The notes under the pieces are model-generated. The model searched no databases. It was not told where the DNA came from and saw nothing but the letters and a program-made list of their open reading frames with translations. Made by a program: the position numbers and the translations under genes. 64,000 nt of DNA from Streptomyces sp. Q6 (GTDB lineage Bacteria; Actinomycetota; Actinomycetes; Streptomycetales; Streptomycetaceae), in NCBI RefSeq assembly GCF_036967205.1, contig NZ_CP146022.1, positions 6,138,001 through 6,202,000 on the forward strand, given 5' to 3'. Shown one piece after another: positions 29,843-41,080 of this stretch (within the stretch, counting starts at the first letter, position 1; each line of letters begins with the position of its first letter).

Positions 29843-30209
29843 CCGACCATTGTGGCGGCAGGTTTCCTCGGGGACCGGTCACGTCCGTGGATCACTTCAC
29901 ATCGCCGCCGGGAAAACCCGTGACCGACAGCAAGAACATCACCCCCCGTGGGCCAGGGCGGCGGGCAGCGTAGGAAGCAGTCGCGCGCCGAGTGACAGAA
30001 CGACGCACCGCAACCTCGACCGCCAGCTCGCGGCCGACAAGAAGGCGGAGCTGCTGCCCAAGACGCGCGAGAAGACGGGCGTGGCTGAGACGGGCGCAGG
30101 CGAGGCCACTGGGCAGGCGGGGGGACGACACCGCTGCGAACTGACGCGTCACTGGCGCCGCCGCTGAGGCCGCCAGTGACAGGGGGCAACGGGGACGACT
30201 CCAGGGCAT
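29843..30209 (+). other. chromosomal flank left of attL, possible gene remnant
   Basis: No intact gene was found in these 367 bp. One frame from about 29994 to 30167 encodes THRNLDRQLAADKKAELL..., charged and coding-like, but it lacks a usable start in frame, so it may be a decayed gene. CACTGGCG (30150-30157) pairs with CGCCAGTG (30171-30178). The segment 30170-30209 is related to 39905-39944 on the other side of the element. Confidence 0.45.
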
Positions 30210-30258
30210 GCCCGTTCGTCTGCGACACTGGTACAGCCATGCCTAAGCCCGGAGAACT
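30210..30258 (+). repeat. attL, 49-bp direct repeat
   Basis: This is identical to 39945-39993. It includes the sequence GACACTGGTACAGCC and the first codons of rlmN (MPKPGE), so the chromosomal target is the rlmN 5' end rather than a tRNA gene. Here the rlmN-like start leads into element sequence. Confidence 0.93.
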
Positions 30259-30279
30259 GGCAGTGATCCGGCACCAAAA

Positions 30280-30318
30280 AGGCCCCCGGCCTGCGCGTTT
30301 GGCGCGGATCAGGGGCCT
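30280..30318 (-). terminator. terminator after int
   Basis: On the minus strand AGGCCCC (30318-30312) pairs with GGGGCCT (30286-30280) and is followed by a T5 run. An inner GCGC stem may extend it. It ends the repSA-xis-int transcript before attL. Confidence 0.8.
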
Positions 30319-30326
30319 GTTTTGGC

Positions 30327-31589
30327 TTATGGGGCCGTCTCTGGGCCGTCAGGCTCGGGAGGCGGTGGCAGGAACACCCGGTCCACGGCGTTCCTGGTCC
30401 GCTCCTGGCTCGACGGCATCAGGTGGGCGTACACCCGCAGCGTCAGCGCCGGGTCGGTGTGTCCGAGGTACTGGCTTACGGCCTTGATGCTCTCCCCGGC
30501 GTCCAGGAGGACGGACGCGTAGAAGTGCCTCAACGCGTGCATGCCGTGCTCGCGTGCCGACTCGTACTTGCCGTCGGGCCCGGCGTGCGGGATGAGGCCA
30601 GCGAGCGCGAGAGCGGGCTTCCAGTCCTGCACGTTGAAGTTGCTGCGCCACACGATCCCGCCCGCGGAGTTCGTGAACAGGAGACGGGCCGTCACTTTCG
30701 GGCCGTCCGGCTTCCGCCACGGAAGCGTGATCTCAACCGGCTTGAAGGTGTCCATGTGGATGCGCAGCGCCTCAGCGACGTACGAAGGCAGCGGGACGTC
30801 TCGCTCCTTGCCGCACTTCGGCGGGGCGAACACGGCCTTGCCCCGGATGAGCTTCACCTGACGGACCACGCGAAGGGTGCCGCCCTCGAAGTCGATCGCT
30901 TCTTCAGCAAGCCCGACGATCTCGCCCTGGCGGAGGCCGCACCCGGCGCCCGTGTCCACCATGGTCCGGTAGCGCTGGGGGAGCGCTGCGCGAACGGCCT
31001 GCACCTGCGTGGGCAGCCATGGAACGACGCGCCGTCGCTCAGCAGTCGGCGGGCGGACGGACTTCGCAGAGCACGGGTTCCGGGAGAGGAGACCGTCGTC
31101 CACGGCTGCGCTCAGCACGGCACGAACGTCGCCGTAGATGTTGCGCGCGTAGGCGCCGCTCACTGCCGGGTTGGCCTCCAGGGCGCTGGTGAGCTGGCGG
31201 ATGTGCTCGGGGCGGAACGAGTCCAGCGGGCGTGTCCCGATCACCGGGAACGCGTGCAGTCGAAGCCGCTGCTCCGTGACGATCTGGCTCGACACGTCAG
31301 CGGTATGCGCCGTGAGCCACTTCTCGGCGTACTTCTTGAAGGTGATCCGAGCGGCGCGAGGATCGACGTAGTTGCCACGCGACATGTCCGAAGCAATGTC
31401 GATCAGCCATTGCTCCGCGAGCCGCTTCTGCCGGTCCGGAAAGCTCTTGGACTTCTCGGATCCGTCCGGCCCGATGTAGCGGGCGCGATAGCGGAGACCG
31501 ACGCCGTAGCGGTCGCTCTTGACCTTGACGGGCTTGCCGTCCGGGCCGGGCTCGACCTTGAACCAGCGGTCTTGGATGTGTCCGGCCAT
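30327..31589 (-). CDS. int: tyrosine site-specific integrase
   Basis: The 420-aa recombinase catalyses integration and excision between attP and the rlmN attB. The catalytic residues are visible as R in GCGLRQGEIVGL, H-R in HALRHFYAS, H in LGHTDPALT and Tyr in LRVYAHL. The N-terminal part has an AP2-like arm-binding region and a SAM-like core-binding domain (ITFKKYAEKWLTAH). ATG 31589 overlaps the xis stop by 1 bp. The gene ends next to attL, as expected for an AICE. Confidence 0.96.
   Translation of the reverse strand: MAGHIQDRWFKVEPGPDGKPVKVKSDRYGVGLRYRARYIGPDGSEKSKSFPDRQKRLAEQWLIDIASDMSRGNYVDPRAARITFKKYAEKWLTAHTADVSSQIVTEQRLRLHAFPVIGTRPLDSFRPEHIRQLTSALEANPAVSGAYARNIYGDVRAVLSAAVDDGLLSRNPCSAKSVRPPTAERRRVVPWLPTQVQAVRAALPQRYRTMVDTGAGCGLRQGEIVGLAEEAIDFEGGTLRVVRQVKLIRGKAVFAPPKCGKERDVPLPSYVAEALRIHMDTFKPVEITLPWRKPDGPKVTARLLFTNSAGGIVWRSNFNVQDWKPALALAGLIPHAGPDGKYESAREHGMHALRHFYASVLLDAGESIKAVSQYLGHTDPALTLRVYAHLMPSSQERTRNAVDRVFLPPPPEPDGPETAP
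30332..30350 (+). repeat. candidate integrase arm site, left
   Basis: GGGCCGTCTCTGGGCCGTC contains two GGGCCGTC units. It matches 39857-39875 at 18 of 19 positions, in the same orientation, and each copy lies about 70 bp inside its att core. That layout suggests arm-type binding sites for Int or Xis. The left copy is within the 3' end of int. Confidence 0.5.
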
Positions 31590-31786
31590 CAGGCGGCGGC
31601 TCCTTCCATGAGGGAACCGACCCAGGCGCGGACGTCGGCGGGGTCGAAACGAAGGTGCCGGCCGACGCGGAATCCCTTCGGACCCGTGCGCTTGCGCCGC
31701 CACTGGTAGACGGTCTCGACCGAGACGCCCAGGAGTTCGGCGACGTCAACAGGGGTCATGTAGCGGTCGGGCAAGGCGTGCTGCAT
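31589..31786 (-). CDS. xis: excisionase, helix-turn-helix
   Basis: The 65-aa product has a MerR-type winged-helix motif (MTPVDVAELLGVSVETVYQW; GRHLRFDPADVRAWV), standard for AICE Xis proteins that direct Int toward excision. ATG 31786 is 10 bp from AAGGAG; upstream GTG codons at 31792 and 31795 are too close to it. It overlaps the end of repSA and the start of int, giving a coupled operon. Confidence 0.9.
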   Translation of the reverse strand: MQHALPDRYMTPVDVAELLGVSVETVYQWRRKRTGPKGFRVGRHLRFDPADVRAWVGSLMEGAAA

Positions 31787-31788
31787 CG

Positions 31789-33177
31789 TCACCACTCCTT
31801 CTCGTCTGCCAGGTCTGCAAGTGCCTCGCGTGCTGTCTCGCGGTTCAGTTGGAGGTCACGCCGGATGTTGGAGGCGAGCCAGGACTCACCCGGGGTGTGG
31901 CCATGTCCGGCGTAGGCCCAGTGGGCGAGCGTGAGCGTGGTCTCCTCGGGGATCTCGTCCGGGTCGGGCAAGCCGAGGGCTGCGCGGTGCTGGGCGGCGC
32001 GGTAGTCGGCGCGGACTTGGCGGAGGGCGCCGAGGGTGGTGGAGAAGCGGCGGGACTTGGTGGAGAAGTGGCCGCGGAAGCCGAGCATGTGGGCCCAGTC
32101 GCGGAGCTTGCGGTCCGGGTAGGAGGCGTGCAGGTCGAGACAGGCCTCGATCAGGCGGCGTGGGTGGTCGGGCACGTCGAGGAGGACCAAGGCCTCCTTG
32201 TTGCCGATGCGGCGGTCGACGGTGCCGGTGGTCTCGGCGGCTTTAGTGGCGTACTTGGCCACGTAGGAGGCGACGGCCTGTTCGGTGATTTCGGAGCCGT
32301 CGCCGAAGGCTTTGATGGGCTGGACGTCGAGCCGGTCGCCCCAGCCGAAGACGCGGGCGGGGTGGTCGCCGGAGGCGTCCAAGTCGACGCGGACGCGAGC
32401 AGCTGCAGCGCGGATCGCGTCGGTCAGGAGCGAGAGCGTGGCCCAGTGCGGGGGAGGGGAGTCGGGACCGTCCGGGCCGTCGAAGCGGATCACGGCGTGA
32501 AAGTGGATCGCGCCACGCTTCTGGTACTCGGCGACCTTGCCGAAGGAGAGCCGGGACTGTTCCTTTGCCGCCTTCTGGGTGAGTCCGGCGCGGGCGGCGA
32601 TCTCGCGGCGGAGGTAGATCGTGAAGTAGCGCCACAGGTCGGAGGCGTGGTTGTTCCAGAGCACCGAGCCCGCGTAGTCGTAGGTGTCCGGGTCGAGGGG
32701 CGTGCCCAACTCGGCTGCGTCTTCCAGGTGCCGGATGCCGCAGCGGCACGGGCGGGTGCCGGGCCGGTTGTGCACGGGGCCGAAGCTCGGGGCGGTGAGC
32801 GTGGCGAAGACGCGGGGGTGCTCGCGCAGGGTGCGTGGGGTGCCCTTGTCGGGGTCGCCGACGAGTCCGGCGCGGATCAGGTGGTAGGTGTCGCCCGCGT
32901 AGGTCCAGGCGCAGGACGGGCAGCGCGAGGCACGGCGGTTGCCGCAGGCGACCCGGAGCCGTCCGCCGGGCTCGGTGTCGGTCGAGTAGCTGTAGAGGAC
33001 CTGGCCGGTGGTGCGGTCGCGGGTGACGGTGGCGCCCTGGAGGTGGATGGGGTCGGTGCAGCCGCCGGTCCGGCGGATCTGGTCTTGGATGCGGTCGAAG
33101 CCCGGGGACCCGGCGACCCTCAGCACGTCGGCGAGGGTGGCCGGGTCCAGGCCCGCCATGGCGGCGGAGTCGGTCAT
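31789..33177 (-). CDS. repSA: rolling-circle replication initiator RepSA
   Basis: The 462-aa protein resembles pSAM2 RepSA. The HUH metal motif is in GAIHFHAVIRFDG near residue 215, and candidate nicking tyrosines are in VASYVAKYATK. A Cys-rich part (CGNRRASRCPSCAW, CRCGIRH) lies in the N-terminal third. It would nick the double-strand origin and start rolling-circle replication after excision. It heads the repSA-xis-int operon. Confidence 0.92.
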   Translation of the reverse strand: MTDSAAMAGLDPATLADVLRVAGSPGFDRIQDQIRRTGGCTDPIHLQGATVTRDRTTGQVLYSYSTDTEPGGRLRVACGNRRASRCPSCAWTYAGDTYHLIRAGLVGDPDKGTPRTLREHPRVFATLTAPSFGPVHNRPGTRPCRCGIRHLEDAAELGTPLDPDTYDYAGSVLWNNHASDLWRYFTIYLRREIAARAGLTQKAAKEQSRLSFGKVAEYQKRGAIHFHAVIRFDGPDGPDSPPPHWATLSLLTDAIRAAAARVRVDLDASGDHPARVFGWGDRLDVQPIKAFGDGSEITEQAVASYVAKYATKAAETTGTVDRRIGNKEALVLLDVPDHPRRLIEACLDLHASYPDRKLRDWAHMLGFRGHFSTKSRRFSTTLGALRQVRADYRAAQHRAALGLPDPDEIPEETTLTLAHWAYAGHGHTPGESWLASNIRRDLQLNRETAREALADLADEKEW

Positions 33178-33184
33178 CGGCAGG

Positions 33185-33367
33185 TCACCGGCCCGCGCGT
33201 GCGAGGGCGGCGCGGGTGGTGTGGCCGTGGCCGTTGCAGGTGCGGCAGGTGGCGGTGAGGATCTGGCGGGAGCCGTCGCGGTTGCGGAGGCCGGTGGTGA
33301 TCGCGACGGCGGGGAAGCCGTCGCAGTCGGCGCAGATGCGTGCGCGGGCAGGGGTGGGCTGGGCCAT
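33185..33367 (-). CDS. small Cys-rich AICE protein
   Basis: The 60-aa product has CADCDGF near the N-terminus and CRTCNGHGHTT near the C-terminus, a DnaJ-like zinc-finger pattern. Short proteins of this type commonly sit just upstream of repSA in AICEs; no function is known to me. It ends 7 bp before repSA. Confidence 0.7.
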   Translation of the reverse strand: MAQPTPARARICADCDGFPAVAITTGLRNRDGSRQILTATCRTCNGHGHTTRAALARAGR

Positions 33368-33458
33368 GATGGATGTTCCTTCCGGATCTGTTGGTTCGGG
33401 CAGGAGTCACGGCTCCGGAGCGGACGAAACTTGGCGGTAGAGGCCGCTCCGGGGCCGG

Positions 33459-33779
33459 TCAGCGGTTCTTGATCTCGCTGTTGATGAGCGAGCGGACGAC
33501 GAGCGCGACGAGCGCGAGCGACCCGGCGGTGATGGCGACCGCGAGGAGCATGGAGACCAGCACGGTGCCGACAACGAGCACGGCCGCAGTGCCGCCGCCG
33601 ACGAGCAGCGCGATCGAGCCGGGGGTGAGTTGCACGGTGGGCCGGTTGGTCGCGGCCGGGGCAGGGTGCTGGCAGGAGCAGGCGGCCGGGGCGTGCTGGT
33701 GACCGTCCACGGCCGTGGTGCCGAGCGGGATGATCTGGCCGGTGGGCTGGTCGTTGACCGGGATCTTCGGGGTGAACAC
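33459..33779 (-). CDS. SpdD-like spread protein
   Basis: The 106-aa product has a hydrophilic His/Cys-containing N-terminus (HQHAPAACSCQHPAPA) and a long hydrophobic segment (IALLVGGGTAAVLVVGTVLV, continuing through AITAGSLALVALVV). This matches SpdD-type proteins of Streptomyces plasmids and AICEs that promote intramycelial spread. GTG 33779 follows GGAAGGGAGTACCGCC. Confidence 0.75.
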   Translation of the reverse strand: MFTPKIPVNDQPTGQIIPLGTTAVDGHQHAPAACSCQHPAPAATNRPTVQLTPGSIALLVGGGTAAVLVVGTVLVSMLLAVAITAGSLALVALVVRSLINSEIKNR

Positions 33780-33804
33780 GGGCGGTACTCCCTTCCGGGG
33801 CAGG

Positions 33805-33960
33805 TCAGTTGATGAGGGAGCCGACGGCGGGGCCGAGGAAGCTGTCGGCGATCAGGTAGCCGCCGAGCAGGAGCAGGACCACAAGCCAGATCGGCGGGCG
33901 GGTGAGCTTGATCCCGAGCCATCCGACGACGATCAGAGCGAGCCAGAGCGGGACGTCCAC
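33805..33960 (-). CDS. 51-aa membrane protein, SpdC-like position
   Basis: The gene encodes MDVPLWLALIVVGWLGIKL...IN and is almost entirely one or two hydrophobic segments (LALIVVGWLGI; WLVVLLLLGGYLIADSFLG). It has a clear ribosome site (TAGGAGACCGCC) before GTG 33960. It lies between spdD and the 62-aa transfer protein with short gaps, so it is probably another spread protein. Strong codon continuity supports it. Confidence 0.7.
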   Translation of the reverse strand: MDVPLWLALIVVGWLGIKLTRPPIWLVVLLLLGGYLIADSFLGPAVGSLIN

Positions 33961-33969
33961 GGCGGTCTC

Positions 33970-34158
33970 CTAGGCGGTGCAGCGGTGGGTACGGGCGGCG
34001 AGTTCGGCGGCGGAGCGGTTGTCGTACTCCGTGGAGAAGTCACAGCGGGGCGCGGTGCAGGCGGCGGCGTGGCGCTCGCGGCCGCGCCCGTCGAAGAAGG
34101 TGGCGACCTGGACGGGGCCGATCTTCTGTACGTTGCGGAAGCGCCGGTATGCGGTCAT
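33970..34158 (-). CDS. mobile element transfer protein
   Basis: The 62-aa product (MTAYRRFRNVQKIGPVQVAT...CTAPRCDFSTEYD...RTHRC) matches a short protein found in most Streptomyces AICEs and annotated as mobile element transfer protein. ATG 34158 is chosen because AAAGGA lies upstream; the frame is open to 34185. Three Cys residues could bind metal. Confidence 0.8.
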   Translation of the reverse strand: MTAYRRFRNVQKIGPVQVATFFDGRGRERHAAACTAPRCDFSTEYDNRSAAELAARTHRCTA

Positions 34159-34177
34159 ATCGGGACGTCCTTTCTGG

Positions 34178-34852
34178 TCAGGCAAGTTGGAGGTGGGCGG
34201 CGATCGATTCGACGACCGGCGCGGGAAGCCCGAGCTGGGCTCGCAGGTTGGCGACCGGGAGCGGACTGCCGGTGGTCGCGCGGTGGTGGTCGGCGAGCTT
34301 GCGGGCGTGGTCCAGGAGTGCCGGCGGAACGCTCGCCGGGAGGGGCGCGGGCTCCTGGGCCGGTTCGGCAGCCGGGAGTTCCTGGGCGGCCGGTTCGGGG
34401 AGTTCGGGTGTGCTGTCGGTGCGGTGCAGGTCGACCGCGGGCACCTCTTCGGTCGGCTCCGGCGCGGCAGGCACTGGGGCCGGGGTGGTCTCGGTCGGGG
34501 TGTGGACCAGGAGCGTGCCGCCGAGGAAGGCGAGCGCGGGCCATCCGGCGACGACGATCCGCAGCCAGGCCGGGACGTTGGCCAGGTCGAGGAGTCCGGC
34601 GGTGGCGATGTTCGCGCCGAGTGAGGCGAACAGGGCGATCACGAACCAGGCCCAGGCGGCGCGGTCGCGGCGGCTTGTGCGCAGGCGGCGCCAGGCCGCG
34701 ACGAGGAGCAGGTCGACGCTGATCGGGTAGGCCCAGGCCTTCCAGCCGGACTGTCCGGCGGCGTCGGCCAGGTCGTGCAGGTGGGAGAAGGACAGGGCTC
34801 CGGCGATCACGGCTTGGATGAGTACGGCGTCCAGGCGGATCGAGCGGTTCAC
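34178..34852 (-). CDS. DUF2637 membrane protein (SpdB-like)
   Basis: The product has about four hydrophobic helices in its first 120 residues (LIQAVIAGALSFSHLHDLA; WFVIALFASLGANIATAG), followed by a Pro/Glu-rich linker and a C-terminal helical domain (LLDHARKLADHHR). DUF2637 proteins are linked to transfer and spread. AGGAGG at 34862-34867 fits GTG 34852 (8-bp spacing) better than ATG 34858 or GTG 34861. Confidence 0.82.
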   Translation of the reverse strand: MNRSIRLDAVLIQAVIAGALSFSHLHDLADAAGQSGWKAWAYPISVDLLLVAAWRRLRTSRRDRAAWAWFVIALFASLGANIATAGLLDLANVPAWLRIVVAGWPALAFLGGTLLVHTPTETTPAPVPAAPEPTEEVPAVDLHRTDSTPELPEPAAQELPAAEPAQEPAPLPASVPPALLDHARKLADHHRATTGSPLPVANLRAQLGLPAPVVESIAAHLQLA

Positions 34853-34989
34853 CGTCATCACCTCCTAGCAGGGGTGGGGCCGAGCGGGGCGGGGAGCAGT
34901 GCTCCGGCCGCCCGGCTTCGGCGGATTCAGGCATGGGTGGGGTAGGGACCTGGCGCGAGGCGGTCGCGCCGACCGGAGAGCGGGGAGTG

Positions 34990-36327
34990 TCAGGGGAACG
35001 CGGGTGCCGTCGTCGGCATGGGCGGGATCGTCGGCGCCGGGACCGAAACGGCCGGCCGGAAGGGCGCCAGGGCCGGAAGGTCCGGGATCAGGTGGGCGAA
35101 CTCGCGGCAAGCGGCCACGGTTTCGTCGACCGAGGTGTACGGGGTTCGGATGCGACCCCAGCCGCCGGAGGCGTCGGCGGCAACGGCCTGCCCGGGCCGG
35201 TCGGCGGGGATCGTGCACGCGGCCGGGACGGACTCCGGGGCCACGTCGTTCAGACCCATCTCTGCCGTCTGCTTGTCGTTGACGCGGTGCACCACGCGGC
35301 CGGTGAGCTGGGCCCGGAGCATGGTGGCACCCTTGCCGAGTTCGGAGCCGAAGCGCTGCCCGCAGATCTCCAGGTAGATGCCGACCGCGCGGGAGAGCTG
35401 GGCAAGGCGGATCAGGCCGGTGACGATGCGCTCGCGGCGTTCCTCGTCCTTCTTGGAGGATGTCAGGAAGAGTTCCGCGATCTCGTCGACCAGGACCACG
35501 ACCGGCGCCGGGCGCAGTTCCTCGGGCAGTTCCCACAGGTCTGAGACGCCGTGCTTGGCCAGCAGGTCGAAGCGGTCTTCCATCTCCGCCACCAGCACGT
35601 CGACCAGCGAAGCGGCGTCGTCGGGGTTGGTCGCCAGCGCGGACAGGCGGGGGGCGTAGCGGGACTGCTCGACCCCGCGCTTGCAGTCCATCCCGACCAG
35701 GGCGACGGGCAGTTGAGCGAGGCCCTTGATCAGGTTGCGCTGGTACATGGACTTCCCCGACTGGTTCGCGCCGAGGGTCAGCGCGTGCGGGATCTCGCGG
35801 TAGTCCCGCACATACGCCGTACCGTCGTCCCGGAGCGCGACTGGCACCACCAGATCGAGCGGGGCCGTCTTCTTCGGCATCTGTACCCGGTGCAGCAGGT
35901 CGTGCCCGGTCATCCGCAGTTCGACATAGCCCGGCTTCTTGGCGATCACGTGGACCGAGTGGACGCCCCAGGCGTGCCGCAGTCGCTCGGAGGCGGCGGC
36001 CAGGTCGGCGGGCTCCAGACCGGCGGGAAGCCGCAGCGTGACCCGAAGCCCAGTCGACGTGCCCCGCACGCGGCGGATCTTGGGAGCCACCGGCCGAACC
36101 TCGTGGCGGGCGACCCGGCGGGACATGAACGCCCGCAGTCCCGACGGCTGCACGGTCAGCCCGCACACATCCATCGTGTTCCGGTAGGAGAAAGCGAACC
36201 GGCCCCAGGTCATCGGAAGGCCCACGGCCGCCCAGTAGAGGCGCGGAGCCTTGTACTTGGCGTAGGTGACGCCTCCGGCGCCCGCTATGGCGCCCGACGC
36301 CTCGAACCACACGGCCAGGTCAGCCAC
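34990..36327 (-). CDS. traSA: FtsK/SpoIIIE-type conjugal translocase TraSA/TraB
   Basis: This 445-aa ATPase moves double-stranded element DNA between hyphae. Walker A is TLGANQSGKSMYQ near residue 200 and Walker B is VVVLVDEIAELFL. The N-terminal 60 residues contain hydrophobic stretches. It lies between the SCO3933-type regulator gene and the spread genes on the same strand, so it is probably read from the operator-controlled promoter near 36700. A clt site was not identified. Confidence 0.92.
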   Translation of the reverse strand: MADLAVWFEASGAIAGAGGVTYAKYKAPRLYWAAVGLPMTWGRFAFSYRNTMDVCGLTVQPSGLRAFMSRRVARHEVRPVAPKIRRVRGTSTGLRVTLRLPAGLEPADLAAASERLRHAWGVHSVHVIAKKPGYVELRMTGHDLLHRVQMPKKTAPLDLVVPVALRDDGTAYVRDYREIPHALTLGANQSGKSMYQRNLIKGLAQLPVALVGMDCKRGVEQSRYAPRLSALATNPDDAASLVDVLVAEMEDRFDLLAKHGVSDLWELPEELRPAPVVVLVDEIAELFLTSSKKDEERRERIVTGLIRLAQLSRAVGIYLEICGQRFGSELGKGATMLRAQLTGRVVHRVNDKQTAEMGLNDVAPESVPAACTIPADRPGQAVAADASGGWGRIRTPYTSVDETVAACREFAHLIPDLPALAPFRPAVSVPAPTIPPMPTTAPAFP

Positions 36328-36330
36328 GGC

Positions 36331-36663
36331 TCAGACCCCCGACGTGATCGCGATCGCGCGGAACGAGATGCCGTGCCGCTTCTCGCCGTTGAAGGTGTTC
36401 TCCCAGTCGCGGGCCTTGAGCCCGGTAACCCGGACCGGCGTGCCCGGCGCGAGGCCCTCGGGGATGCCCGTCTCCGGCACGGTCACCTGGTAGAGGTTGC
36501 CCTCTCCCTCGTCCGAGACCAGCAGGCCCACCGTCGACAGCGCCACGCTCGGGTTGTCCCGGTCCATGGCCCGCTCACCGGTCTTCTTGTTGATGAGCTT
36601 CGGCTCCGGCGCGGTCGCCACGAACACAACAGCGGTCTGAAGGTCGATCTTGAAGGACGGCAT
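36331..36663 (-). CDS. SCO3933-family AICE regulatory protein
   Basis: The 110-aa product (MPSFKIDLQTAVVFVATAPEP...) belongs to a small family found at this place in Streptomyces AICEs. It may correspond to Pra, the activator of rep-xis-int in pSAM2, but that equivalence is inferred from position and size. ATG 36663 follows GAGGAGACGCA. It heads the leftward tra operon. Confidence 0.75.
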   Translation of the reverse strand: MPSFKIDLQTAVVFVATAPEPKLINKKTGERAMDRDNPSVALSTVGLLVSDEGEGNLYQVTVPETGIPEGLAPGTPVRVTGLKARDWENTFNGEKRHGISFRAIAITSGV

Positions 36664-36694
36664 TGCGTCTCCTCTATACGAGCTTTTCTCCTGC

Positions 36695-36710
36695 ACTCAT
36701 GTACAGGAGT
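36695..36710 (+). promoter_or_regulatory. operator O1 (KorSA-type)
   Basis: ACTCATGTACAGGAGT is an imperfect palindrome about 32 bp upstream of the SCO3933-type gene. It shares 15 of 16 positions with the perfect copy at 36731-36746. Confidence 0.7.
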
Positions 36711-36730
36711 TATGAGTAGAAGAGTGCCCA

Positions 36731-36746
36731 ACTCATGTACATGAGT
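36731..36746 (+). promoter_or_regulatory. operator O2 (KorSA-type), perfect palindrome
   Basis: ACTCATGTACATGAGT is a perfect 16-bp palindrome, 36 bp from O1 centre to centre. Together O1 and O2 cover the promoter region of the leftward transfer genes and lie downstream of the repressor gene. Confidence 0.75.
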
Positions 36747-36797
36747 CAAGCAAGCAGGGTTGCCGCGCTTGGAGTTGGCCGAAATATGGTTCGGCTG

Positions 36798-37577
36798 TCA
36801 GTCCCGCGCGGCGAAGCGATAGTCCAAAACGAACTGGTCAGCGGCCATGATCGTGTCGCAGACCTCCACTACCCGATCTCCGTCCGTGATCGCGTTCCGG
36901 ACAAGGTGAATCACGGGTGCTCCCGGGCTCAGAGCCAAGGCGGAGCCCTCGGCCTTCGTCGCGAGGCGAGCGCTGACGGTCTCGACGAACTCGGCAAGCA
37001 GGTGGCCGTGCTCCTCCAGCCGGGCGTAGATGCCGCCGCCTCCGGGGTTGTCGGCGAACATCTCGGGGATGTCCTTCACCACGTCCCACGGCAGGTAGGA
37101 GGTCGCTTCTTCGGTAGGAACGCCATCCCGGAAGTAACGACGCTTGCGGGCGAGGACCTTCGAGCCCGCCGGCACTTCGAGCCGCTCAGCGATTTCCGCC
37201 GGTGCATCAACCGGCCCGACGAACAACACGTTCACCGACGGCACTCCGCCCGACCGCTCCGCCTCGGCGAGATAAGCAGCCTTCCCGGCCTTCCGGTGGG
37301 CCCTACGGAAGCGATCGGAAGACTTCCGCTGCACTGGCGGGCGCGAGCGCACGAAGGAACCGCGCCCGTGGTGGGTCTCGATCAACTGAGTAGCGCGGAG
37401 CTCGGCCACGGCCTTGCGCACGGTGCCGGACGCGACTCCGTATCGAGCCATCAAGTCCGATTCGCTAGGCACAGGAGACCCAGGTTCAAGCGTGCCCGCT
37501 TGGATCTGAGCGGCCAGGTCGTCCGCAATCTGTAGGTACTTCGCCTTCGCTGAAGACGCCACGCTGTCACTCGCCAT
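36798..37577 (-). CDS. korSA: GntR-family repressor, KorSA-like
   Basis: The 259-aa protein has an N-terminal GntR winged helix (YLQIADDLAAQIQAGTLEPG; YGVASGTVRKAVAELRATQ) and a C-terminal UTRA domain (VLARKRRYFRDGVPTEEATSYLP). In pSAM2 KorSA silences the replication and transfer activator and its own gene. ATG 37577 lies 20 bp from operator O3, supporting autoregulation. Another GntR role is unlikely given the operator copies around it. Confidence 0.85.
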   Translation of the reverse strand: MASDSVASSAKAKYLQIADDLAAQIQAGTLEPGSPVPSESDLMARYGVASGTVRKAVAELRATQLIETHHGRGSFVRSRPPVQRKSSDRFRRAHRKAGKAAYLAEAERSGGVPSVNVLFVGPVDAPAEIAERLEVPAGSKVLARKRRYFRDGVPTEEATSYLPWDVVKDIPEMFADNPGGGGIYARLEEHGHLLAEFVETVSARLATKAEGSALALSPGAPVIHLVRNAITDGDRVVEVCDTIMAADQFVLDYRFAARD

Positions 37578-37597
37578 AGTCCTACAGTCTCTCCTAT

Positions 37598-37613
37598 TCT
37601 CCTGTACATGAGT
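37598..37613 (+). promoter_or_regulatory. operator O3 between korSA and the Nudix gene
   Basis: TCTCCTGTACATGAGT is the reverse-oriented counterpart of O1 (ACTCATGTACAGGAGA on the minus strand). It covers the Nudix start codon (37608-37610). TATTCT at 37595-37600 could be a -10 box for a leaderless Nudix transcript, so repressor binding would block initiation directly. Confidence 0.7.
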
Positions 37614-38072
37614 AACAGCGACCGCCAGAAGCCGTCAACGCCTCTCCACTCTGTATCCGTGGCGGGGGTTGTTGTGCGCGAGGACGGGCGCGTGCTGGTG
37701 ATCCGTCGTGCCGACAACGGGCGGTGGGAGCCGCCGGGTGGGGTGTTGGAGCGGGACGAGGCCATCGAGGATGGGGTGTGCCGCGAGGTCTACGAAGAGA
37801 CCGGGATCAAGGTGCGCGTCGATCGGCTCACGGGCGTGTACAAGAACATGACGATCGGGGTCGTCGCCATGGTCTTCCGGTGCCGTCCGGACGGTGGGCA
37901 CGAACAGCTCTCTGACGAATCGACCGCAGTGACCTGGCTTGCCCCGGACGAAGCCATGGCCGCGATGAGCGAGGCCTACAGCGTCCGCATCGCAGATGCT
38001 CTCACCGACGACACGGCTCCCCACATCCGAACCCATGACGGACGCAACCTCACCGACCAGTCAGGCAACTAG
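37608..38072 (+). CDS. Nudix hydrolase, Pif-like
   Basis: The 154-aa product has a complete Nudix box (GGVLERDEAIEDG; REVYEETGI) after WEPPGG. In pSAM2 the Pif protein, which has a Nudix motif, prevents transfer between cells already carrying the element; the same place in this element suggests the same role. ATG 37608 has no ribosome site and lies inside operator O3, so a leaderless mRNA is likely. Confidence 0.78.
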   Translation: MSNSDRQKPSTPLHSVSVAGVVVREDGRVLVIRRADNGRWEPPGGVLERDEAIEDGVCREVYEETGIKVRVDRLTGVYKNMTIGVVAMVFRCRPDGGHEQLSDESTAVTWLAPDEAMAAMSEAYSVRIADALTDDTAPHIRTHDGRNLTDQSGN

Positions 38073-38373
38073 TCCAACTGCCCGGAGCCGGAGAGCTGTT
38101 ACAAGTTTCTCTACCTCATCAAGCACCCGGCTGCGCTCCGCTCCGCCGGGCGGGCTTCCCGGCTCCGCTCGGGGCGCCGCTCCTGCCTTCGGCCCGCTCC
38201 GCCCCGGCTGCGCCGACGCCCGCCCACAGTGGATAGGCCCGGAGGACATGAGTCGAGCACCCGACACGCTCGCGGCCCATGGTCACAGACGATGCCTCCG
38301 GCGGGGGATCGGCCGGCACCGGGTGGGAGGGGGCGCCGTTCTCGGCCGCGGGCACATCGTGGCGAGCGTGGTG

Positions 38374-38526
38374 GGCTCCCATCCCGTCCACCGTCGACCC
38401 AGGCGGAGCCGAGCAGACGCGGCCCATGGCGTCCAGGTCGTTCGTACAGTGGCGCGCTCCACCTGGACGCCATGAACCACGCCCGCTCCACAGACGTGTG
38501 GGTCGACGGCGGACGGGATGGGAGCC
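38374..38526 (+). repeat. nested inverted repeats (28-bp outer, 14-bp inner)
   Basis: Outer arms 38374-38401 and 38499-38526 match in 27 of 28 positions. Inside them CATGGCGTCCAGGT (38425-38438) pairs perfectly with ACCTGGACGCCATG (38461-38474). As single-stranded DNA this folds into a cruciform-like structure with a stem-loop on a stem. Confidence 0.9.
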
Positions 38527-38621
38527 TCTGAGGTGAGGAGTGTGGCTAAGGCGGATGGGCGCGCGTCGCCGCATTGTGTAAAAACTTGGCAATGCCCTAG
38601 TAATGAATTCACCAGGACGCC

Positions 38622-38705
38622 TTCACGCGATGGCCGGGCGGGCTACGCTCCGTGACCGAAGGTCAGCATAGCGACGGAGCGTAGCCCGCCCGGCCATCGC
38701 GTGAA
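38622..38705 (+). repeat. perfect 32-bp inverted repeat with 20-nt loop
   Basis: Arms 38622-38653 and 38674-38705 are exact reverse complements. The motif TACGCTCCGTGA at the inner end of the left arm recurs at 38717-38728, giving three related sites counting the inverted one. An AT-rich segment lies just left of it. Confidence 0.93.
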
Positions 38706-38759
38706 CCAGGCGCTGTTACGCTCCGTGAAAAATTCAGAGTCCGGCTAAGAGTGGCCAGG

Positions 38760-39005
38760 TCAGGCGGCTGCGAGCCTGCGACGGGTCGCGTCACCGAAGT
38801 ATCGCGAGTGCGTTTTGCGGAGGCTGGCCAATGAGATGCCCGTTAGGACGACGATCTCTGTGTCGTCGTGGCCGCGAAGCTCTCGCTCAAGCTGGAAGCG
38901 CGCCCGAAGTGCGTCGCGACCCTCGGAAGAAGCAAACTCTCGCCGCACATCCGTTTCGCCGGTGTGGCGGTTGTACACGAGGAGGAAGTGCTTCAGTGCC
39001 GTCAT
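38760..39005 (-). CDS. 81-aa protein downstream of alarmone synthetase, candidate antitoxin
   Basis: The product ([20 protein letters not shown]...TGISLASLRKTHSRYF...) is small, charged and has an alpha/beta look. Its ATG 39005 overlaps the synthetase stop (ATGA), with AAGGGAAGG as ribosome site, so the two are translationally coupled. No family function is known to me. Gene order and coupling suggest neutralisation or co-function with the synthetase; this is inference. Confidence 0.65.
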   Translation of the reverse strand: MTALKHFLLVYNRHTGETDVRREFASSEGRDALRARFQLERELRGHDDTEIVVLTGISLASLRKTHSRYFGDATRRRLAAA

Positions 39006-39787
39006 GTTGAGAGCCTTCCCTTGATCTCTTCCGTGTACCCCAGGACCTCGTGCAACTTGGCGAGTAGTGGTTGCTGGGCGTTCATCGTAGCGTCTCGATC
39101 GCTCTTGGAGCCCTCTTCCGCGTACGCCATACACTCCAGCTCGTACAGTCTAGCTGAGATGGCTTCCATCGATTCGATGACATCTGCCACAGCCTGTCCG
39201 CCAGACTCCGGTGGTTCGCCGTAACGGATGCCGCGGCCGAAGATGTCGGCGATGCGCTCGAAGACGTTGGCCCAAAGGTCCTGCCCCATCGTGCGCAACT
39301 GCACCTCAACATAACGGCCGTCGAGCGAGACGATCACATGGACGGCTCGATACCCGACCACCGGTTCAATGCGTCGGTCCTTCGTTGAGCAGCTGTGTCC
39401 TTGCCTCTCGAAGCGGTCGATGATCCAGTCTCGAAGTTGATCTTGTTCTTCGAGTGTGACCGCTCCAGACACTCGAATGCCGGCGATGTCCTGGATGCGC
39501 GCCAGATTTGTACTCGCGCCCTTCTCCTTGGCGCGCTGCAACTTCTGGACGAGAGTGTCCGTCGTCTTGAGCCGGTGCGTGACGCCTAGAGGCCACTCAA
39601 GGGTGTCGCAGAGTTCGTCCACTACGCCACGAGCAGCAGACAGCAGCTCGTCGTAGTCGACGAGCCAGTCCTCTAGGAGCGTGAGCGCCTCCTCTGAGGC
39701 CTGGCCTGGCACCTCAAGCCGCTTCCCCAGCTTCTGCACCGCCGACTTCGACATTTGCATCGCATCAAGATAGTTGGGAGCAATCAT
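39002..39787 (-). CDS. RelA/SpoT-domain small alarmone synthetase (toxSAS candidate)
   Basis: The 261-aa product has the full synthetase core and no hydrolase, TGS or ACT domain. Visible motifs are [13 protein letters not shown] (71-83), DIAGIRV (100-106), GYRAVHV (145-151) and VEVQLRT with W172. It could make (p)ppGpp or ppApp, or pyrophosphorylate tRNA as some toxSAS do. Base composition is lower in GC than the neighbours. ATG 39787 has no ribosome site; ATG 39760 is an alternative. Confidence 0.85.
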
Positions 39788-39856
39788 TTTGGTGGCACAG
39801 AAACAGAGACAGCCTTGGGACGGGGTTTCTGTGAGTCGATGCAGCGGCAGCTAGCT

Positions 39857-39875
39857 GGGCCGTCCCTGGGCCGTC
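39857..39875 (+). repeat. candidate integrase arm site, right
   Basis: GGGCCGTCCCTGGGCCGTC is the partner of 30332-30350, with one mismatch, 69 bp inside the attR core. Confidence 0.5.
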
Positions 39876-39944
39876 CAAGGCCGCTCAACAGCGACCAACG
39901 GCGACCGCCAGTGACAGGGGTCCTGCGCGACGACCCCAGGTCAC

Positions 39945-39993
39945 GCCCGTTCGTCTGCGACACTGGTACAGCCATGCCTAAGCCCGGAGAACT
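39945..39993 (+). repeat. attR, 49-bp direct repeat
   Basis: Identical to attL. It contains the rlmN start codon (39974) and its first codons, so the target gene is restored on integration. Confidence 0.93.
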
Positions 39994-41080
39994 TACTTTC
40001 GTTGCCCCCCGCGGAGCCAAGAAGCCGCCGCGGCACCTTGCTGATCTTTCGCCTGCTGAGCGGAAGGAAGCCGTTGCCGCGATCGGTGAGAAGCCGTTTC
40101 GCGCCAAGCAGCTGTCGCAGCACTACTTCGCGCGGTACGCGCACGACCCCGCGGAGTGGACCGACATTCCCGCCGGGTCGCGCGAGAAGCTGCGGGAGGC
40201 GCTGCTTCCCGAGCTGATGACCGTCGTGCGGCATCTGTCGACCGACCAGGACACCACCCGGAAGACCCTGTGGCGTCTGTTCGACGGGACGCTCGTCGAG
40301 TCGGTGCTCATGCGGTACCCGGACCGGGTGACGATGTGCATCTCGTCGCAGGCCGGGTGCGGGATGAACTGTCCGTTCTGTGCCACCGGGCAGGCCGGTC
40401 TCGACCGGAACCTGTCGACCGGTGAGATCGTGCACCAGATCGTGGACGGGATGCGCGCCCTGCGGGACGGCGAGATCCCCGGCGGGCCCGCGCGGCTCAG
40501 CAACATCGTGTTCATGGGGATGGGCGAGCCGCTCGCCAACTACAAGCGGGTCGTGCAGTCCATCCGCGCGCTCACCGACCCCGAGCCGGACGGGCTCGGG
40601 CTCAGCCAGCGCGGTATCACCGTGTCGACGGTCGGGCTGGTGCCCGCCATCAACCGGTTCGCCGACGAGGGCTTCAAGTGCCGCCTCGCCATCTCGCTGC
40701 ACGCCCCCGACGACGAGCTGCGCGACACCCTCGTACCGGTCAACACGCGGTGGAAGGTGCGGGAGGTGCTCGACGCCGGGTGGGAGTACGCCGCCAAGTC
40801 CGGGCGCCGGCTGTCCATCGAGTACGCGCTCATCCGCGACATCAACGACCAGGCCTGGCGCGGTGACCGGCTCGGGCGGTTGCTCCGCGGCAAGCCCGTG
40901 CACGTGAACCTGATCCCGTTGAACCCGACCCCCGGGTCGAAGTGGACCGCCTCGCGGCCCGAGGACGAGAAGGCGTTCGTCGAGGCCATCGCCGCGCACG
41001 GCGTGCCGGTGACCGTCCGGGACACCCGTGGGCAGGAGATCGACGGGGCCTGTGGACAGCTCGCCGCCACCGAGCGGTAG
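39974..41080 (+). CDS. rlmN: dual-specificity rRNA/tRNA adenine C2-methyltransferase RlmN
   Basis: RlmN is a radical SAM enzyme that makes m2A2503 in 23S rRNA and m2A37 in tRNA. The 368-aa protein has the CxxxCxxC cluster in [12 protein letters not shown] near residue 130, then [10 protein letters not shown] and a catalytic Cys region near the end (DIDGACGQL-like, here EIDGACGQL). ATG 39974 lies inside attR. The frame is open upstream to GTG 39911, and the equivalent residues PFVCDTGTA also occur at attL, so a longer start is possible. Its current upstream sequence is element-derived. Confidence 0.95.

Follow-up and report, generated by a model that had tools for sequence, protein, structure and literature searches.

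What is a stand-alone alarmone synthetase gene, coupled to an open reading frame (ORF) for only 81 amino acids (aa), doing at the edge of a conjugative element in Streptomyces? The question is raised by a window of 64,000 nucleotides (nt) from Streptomyces sp. Q6 (contig NZ_CP146022.1, positions 6,138,001 to 6,202,000; coordinates below are those of the window), in which a pSAM2-type actinomycete integrative and conjugative element (AICE) occupies the 5' end of rlmN. The analysis indicates that the pair is probably a bicistronic toxin-antitoxin (TA) module of the PhRel:ATphRel type of toxic small alarmone synthetases (toxSAS), carried as AICE cargo, whose toxin would pyrophosphorylate tRNA once released by phage infection. 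The pair thus adds one more representative to an established family; as a system it is not new, and its outline is already understood.

This assignment is based on homology to gp29 and gp30 of phage Phrann in the same gene order, on the catalytic residues, on the coupling of the two genes, on an ATfaRel2-like fold of the small protein with a [Y/H]xxY motif, and on signs of purifying selection. In pairwise comparisons, the toxin shares 36% identity with gp29 over 208 columns (E 3e-32) and the 81-aa protein 46% with gp30 over 50 columns (E 5e-10), both small proteins having the same HSRYF motif. The Phrann genes lie in a prophage, 7 nt apart, and their toxin occupies a separate branch of the tree, whereas the genes studied here overlap and reside on an AICE. 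The original descriptions are reportedly those of Dedrick 2017 and Jimmy 2020.

In published work, gp29/gp30 protect lysogens of M. smegmatis from Tweety and other phages (PMC9262239), the pair has been named PhRel:ATphRel, with tRNA as the target of PhRel (PMC11559606), and CapRel SJ46 is a related fused form, the unfused one being usual in Actinobacteria (PMC9712102). A literature search by titles and abstract openings, with subscription literature mostly outside its scope, found no description of PhRel on AICEs.

In Pfam, the toxin matches RelA_SpoT alone, across residues 71-174 (E 2.4e-11; 44.4 bits, the cut-off being 27), and no hydrolase domain was matched by Pfam in either protein of the pair. 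An initial annotation had described a stand-alone synthetase from five motifs, all of which were located: HRLK (71-74), DIAGIR (100-105), GYRAVH (145-150), EVQLRT (161-166) and W172. The motif residues are among the 33 invariant columns of a ten-row synthetase alignment (A2), and the catalytic and ATP-site residues, placed by spacing through the FaRel2 numbering of PMC11782079, are intact, as expected of a PhRel-type toxSAS. The AlphaFold model (predicted local distance difference test score, pLDDT, 86.1) has CapRel as its top Foldseek match (E 2.1e-9), FaRel2 appearing at rank 31. PF04607 is matched at three loci of the genome; the two besides this one belong to much longer frames, of 924 and 756 aa.

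The toxin was placed in a tree of 29 rows, comprising 26 toxSAS, two partial RelP segments and one long RelA/SpoT homologue (RSH), a sampling of few rows that carries a long-branch warning. Left out were four other synthetases (L051, L052, L054, L055), a fragment (L061), and copies that were truncated or duplicated Phrann or L082 (L078, L084, L085). The 26 toxSAS rows split from the RelP segments and the long RSH with 100/100 support. Within the wider PhRel/CapRel group, the window toxin falls outside the nine-row CapRel clade (100/100) and forms a clade of its own with the S. coelicoflavus and G167 homologues (98/98). By this tree, the toxin represents a separate PhRel-like branch and is not proven to belong to the Phrann clade. 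CapRel is related in its toxin domain and also in its antitoxin motif, where hhalign places HSRYF on the CapRel YPNYF, but CapRel SJ46 is one fused protein instead of two genes. A single PADLOC model of a candidate phage defence family, PDC-S33, spans both window proteins in order, but describes one protein of 349 positions; Phrann gp30 and the small protein of phage WST1 had no PADLOC match. In PHROGs, both proteins fall with families without known function.

The 81-aa protein keeps the [Y/H]xxY motif, with His replacing the first tyrosine, as it does in gp30 (45% identical in the ten-row antitoxin alignment A1), and H66, R68, Y69 and F70 are invariant across that alignment. Its model (pLDDT 87.6) has ATfaRel2, to which identity is 12%, and the CapRel antitoxin domain as top VIA-align matches; model and alignment together point to a pseudo-zinc-finger domain (pZFD)-like fold with a YxxY-type motif. 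The initial annotation had proposed a new antitoxin: the candidacy stands, but the newness is lost to the homology with gp30 and the resemblance of the model to ATfaRel2 and CapRel.

The two genes are coupled through the ATGA overlap that had been noticed at the outset, with AAGGGAAGG upstream of the antitoxin start as the likely ribosome-binding site. The counterpart of this overlap is GTGA in S. coelicoflavus and TAGATG in G167, indicating that close coupling is kept among relatives while its form varies. Scans of 38500-40050 detected no sigma-70-like promoter site and one terminator-like site, the same number as in shuffled sequences. Across three relatives, the toxin had a ratio of nonsynonymous to synonymous substitution rates (dN/dS) of about 0.16-0.20 and the 81-aa ORF one of 0.10-0.15, figures that are rough because dS (1.2-1.7) is near saturation; both genes appear to be under purifying selection.

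Relatives of the pair were found in phages, plasmids and other genomes, with the order and strand of both genes in common, which together with the dN/dS values makes the pairing more than chance. A tblastn search of the toxin against 50,697 phage records matched six (best WST1, 38%, and Phrann gp29, 36%), and the 81-aa ORF matches a 72-codon ORF that follows the toxin gene of WST1 (58% over 50 aa) as well as the ORF after a Pasteurella phage toxin. Among 72,556 plasmid records, 12 match the toxin, and two of these (Pseudarthrobacter and Arthrobacter) also match the 81-aa ORF in the same order. On IMG/VR contigs retrieved with the toxin profile, the small ORF accompanies six of seven toxins, the seventh being a truncated copy (L084). 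A profile of the small ORF matched 11 of 396 genomes sampled from the phylum; conservation beside homologues, which the initial annotation had made a test of its proposal, was seen in six of the ten other than the window, where an intact synthetase lies directly upstream (L057, L060, L062, L064, L065, L066), with a synthetase fragment in one (L061) and none in three (L059, L063, L067), of which L067 is a weak match (7.7e-4) that may be due to chance.

A search of 392 same-genus genomes with the 81-aa protein identified it in three, Q6 included, which makes the pair rare in the genus. Among the actinomycete loci retrieved, the five closest (the three same-genus ones, G167 and S. coelicoflavus) share gene order and orientation, and in all of them the pair adjoins a conserved non-coding locus, towards which it is transcribed. 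AICE genes also lie near the pair in G520, G508 and G167; the S. coelicoflavus locus is cut by a contig end. An order-wide search with PDC-S33 (292 of 294 genomes matched) was uninformative because long RSH proteins match the model, and among six loci drawn from it (G206, G157, G167, G264, G217, G287) the small ORF was present only in G167. As a separate observation, G217 (L055 4388-5542) encodes a different RelA_SpoT protein of 384 aa at another AICE-like locus (TraB 53%), with a low third-position guanine-plus-cytosine (GC) content of 0.57.

By analogy with the characterized family, we infer toxicity, substrate, trigger and a role in defence. The 81-aa protein, which has H66 where the motif has its first tyrosine, would bind the toxin and insert Y69 into the ATP donor site, keeping the toxin silent; in ATfaRel2 and the antitoxin domain of CapRel, it is the YxxY motif that obstructs the ATP site (PMC11782079). 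Infection by some phages would disturb the complex, and the freed toxin would pyrophosphorylate the 3'-CCA end of uncharged tRNA and stop translation, so that the infected cell or hyphal compartment would yield no phage. The AICE would benefit by protecting its host, and stabilization of the element by the TA pair may be a side effect.

Several observations weigh against this assignment. The Foldseek comparison of the 81-aa model with ATfaRel2 (E 0.31) is not significant alone, a profile of the protein searched against PDB sequences found no toxSAS antitoxin, and hhalign gives its alignment with CapRel low probabilities (7.6% and 4.7%). The toxin profile, searched against solved structures, puts RelP (5e-13) slightly above CapRel (1e-11). 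The five-row Phrann clade (97/91) excludes the window toxin, and with the moderate identity to Phrann this means that substrate and trigger may differ; the near-saturated dS counts on the same side.

As to the host element, an integrase, RepSA, a TraB-like FtsK protein and attachment (att) repeats are all present (Table 1), the bounding direct repeat being 89 nt long with copies 90% identical, and the pair is cargo adjoining attR, as had been supposed. By position, the GntR/UTRA regulator is presumably KorSA-like and the NUDIX protein presumably Pra-like. The cassette is lower in GC than the element backbone (0.603 vs 0.695), confirming an early impression, and third-position GC is 0.72-0.73 in the module vs 0.85-0.92 in the integrase, RepSA and TraB genes, with intermediate values for GntR (0.785) and NUDIX (0.813). 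We infer that the pair plays no part in transfer. Two side observations concern the element: its NUDIX protein matches a PADLOC candidate defence model (PDC-S07, 1.6e-13), and a second integrase, 62% identical and with one in-frame stop, is found in the same genome (G000:C1:3027133-3028491), probably in a decayed element. An AICE in rlmN has been reported earlier (PMC9513070).

Table 1. Features of the rlmN-associated AICE and its cargo (window coordinates).
Feature	Position	Strand	Evidence
PhRel-type toxSAS toxin of 261 aa, with RelA/SpoT synthetase as sole domain	39002..39787	-	Pfam, Phrann gp29 identity, alignment, tree, model
ATphRel-type antitoxin (candidate), 81 aa, H66-S-R-Y69 form of YxxY neutralization motif	38760..39005	-	gp30 identity, alignment, model
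ATGA overlap, toxin stop and antitoxin start	39002..39005	-	sequence
Exchangeable cargo cassette filled by the module	38526..39855	.	homology breakpoints vs two AICEs at the same rlmN site
Perfect 32-bp inverted repeat, 20-nt loop, downstream of antitoxin	38622..38705	.	fold z-score -9.7
Conserved non-coding palindrome-rich AICE locus beside cassette	38093..38525	.	genome and plasmid searches
attL copy of direct repeat	30170..30258	.	repeat comparison
attR copy of direct repeat	39905..39993	.	last 49 nt identical to attL, include rlmN ATG at 39974
Tyrosine integrase	30327..31703	-	Pfam Phage_integrase 2.7e-14
RepSA replication initiator	31789..33177	-	Pfam RepSA 2.2e-151
TraB-like FtsK/SpoIIIE DNA translocase	34990..36327	-	Pfam 3.7e-29
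GntR/UTRA regulator	36798..37577	-	Pfam
NUDIX protein	37608..38072	+	Pfam
rlmN, chromosomal target gene, 5' end = att site	39974..41080	+	Pfam RlmN_N and Radical_SAM

The module fills a slot whose contents differ between AICEs inserted at the same site. G520 holds an AICE at this rlmN site (integrase 81%, RepSA 83%, TraB 70%) that carries a PhRel pair too, at 42% identity, and its homology to the window breaks off at 38525 and resumes at 39855. G340 has a near-identical backbone at rlmN (RepSA 95%, TraB 97%) without the pair; here homology breaks off at 38525 and resumes at 39857, and the slot (L087 9691-10700) contains unrelated genes, one encoding an 8xMP membrane protein (6.5e-20) and another a protein weakly resembling Nuc_deoxyrib_tr/TIR. 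The G289 slot (L092 15628-17419) carries a cyclase of the type found in cyclic oligonucleotide-based antiphage signalling systems (CBASS; 1.3e-39) and an effector with four transmembrane segments (4TM; 4.2e-18), a subtilase is encoded near rlmN in G492 (L091 17146-18966), and the L089 ORF had no Pfam match. The integrase was matched at E <= 1e-150 in 104 of 295 genomes; rlmN lies beside six of eight such relatives inspected, and the non-coding locus was found in two of the eight. That every such slot carries defence genes was considered as a rule and not borne out, the cargo surveyed being mixed: of 20 loci selected because they resemble the non-coding locus, seven contributed ten ORFs to a PADLOC scan, with two clear matches (DzbB, 5e-10; NsnA, 1.2e-52), one weak (2TM effector, 9e-4) and seven ORFs without any, and in L110 the non-coding locus is immediately followed by a tRNA. 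TA and phage-resistance genes have already been reported as AICE cargo (PMC9513070).

The non-coding locus itself is widespread: at E <= 1e-40 it was recognized in 165 of the 295 genomes searched within the genus, and 23 plasmid records carry it as well, with up to 97% identity; it also occurs in L050, L053, L049, L001, L087 and L092, and among the rlmN elements examined it is carried by the window, G520, G340 and G289. It may serve in transfer (clt) or as an origin of single-strand replication; an Rfam search of 30000-40500 returned no match at E <= 0.1. The inverted repeat downstream of the antitoxin, 42 nt of which also lie beside the S. coelicoflavus pair, may be a terminator or an insulator-like hairpin.

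This exchange of cargo bears on the possibility that the module mainly stabilizes the AICE, in that cells losing the element are killed or stalled, phage defence being incidental. Location on a mobile element beside attR would suit such addiction, and TA systems on AICEs have been proposed as addiction systems (PMC9513070). The characterized relatives, however, serve phage defence, a near-identical backbone (L087) does without the module and has other genes in the slot, and another element has the CBASS-type cyclase there. Defence cargo fits such swapping better than a required stabilizer does, and addiction as the main role is considered unlikely. That the module is decaying cargo without function, as many AICE cargo genes are pseudogenes (PMC9513070), is hardly credible with frames and motifs intact and dN/dS below 0.21 in both genes.

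The other alternatives concern the enzyme. A toxin making (p)ppApp or (p)ppGpp, with no tRNA modification, would have the same RelA/SpoT fold, and the profile search puts RelP and RelQ level with or above CapRel; nevertheless, the tree places the toxin with PhRel/CapRel, and the antitoxin looks pZFD-type, a kind tied to tRNA-targeting toxSAS (PMC11782079), and not Tis1-like, which renders this class improbable. A toxin of the FaRel, (p)ppApp-making type would be recognized by a small alarmone hydrolase (SAH hydrolase) or a Tis1-like antitoxin beside it; neither protein of the pair has a hydrolase match and the antitoxin model resembles ATfaRel2, but the absence of Tis1 from its structural matches carries no weight. 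A stand-alone synthetase domain with no hydrolase would befit a housekeeping small alarmone synthetase of the RelP/RelQ kind, acquired by the AICE next to an unrelated small ORF. With 22 bits against the RelQ/YjbM model, where the cut-off is 320, with a tree that does not group the toxin with RelP or the long RSH, and with a conserved, coupled small ORF having an antitoxin fold, this origin is highly improbable, and the preference of the initial annotation for a toxSAS is upheld.

The PhRel:ATphRel-type module extends this group from phages and plasmids to the conjugative elements of mycelial actinomycetes. A bolder idea, for now rather doubtful, is that the rlmN-proximal slot may be a dedicated, cleanly exchangeable site for defence cassettes beside a conserved cis locus, with PhRel modules acquired at least twice, and that the actinomycete branch of PhRel, which differs from that of phages, may also sense incoming conjugative elements, leading to exclusion between AICEs or to growth delay (pocks) during transfer. 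The locus offers a concrete slot where AICEs swap defence-like genes, and a defined pair with which toxSAS defence could be studied in Streptomyces, natural cargo-swapped sister elements providing the controls.
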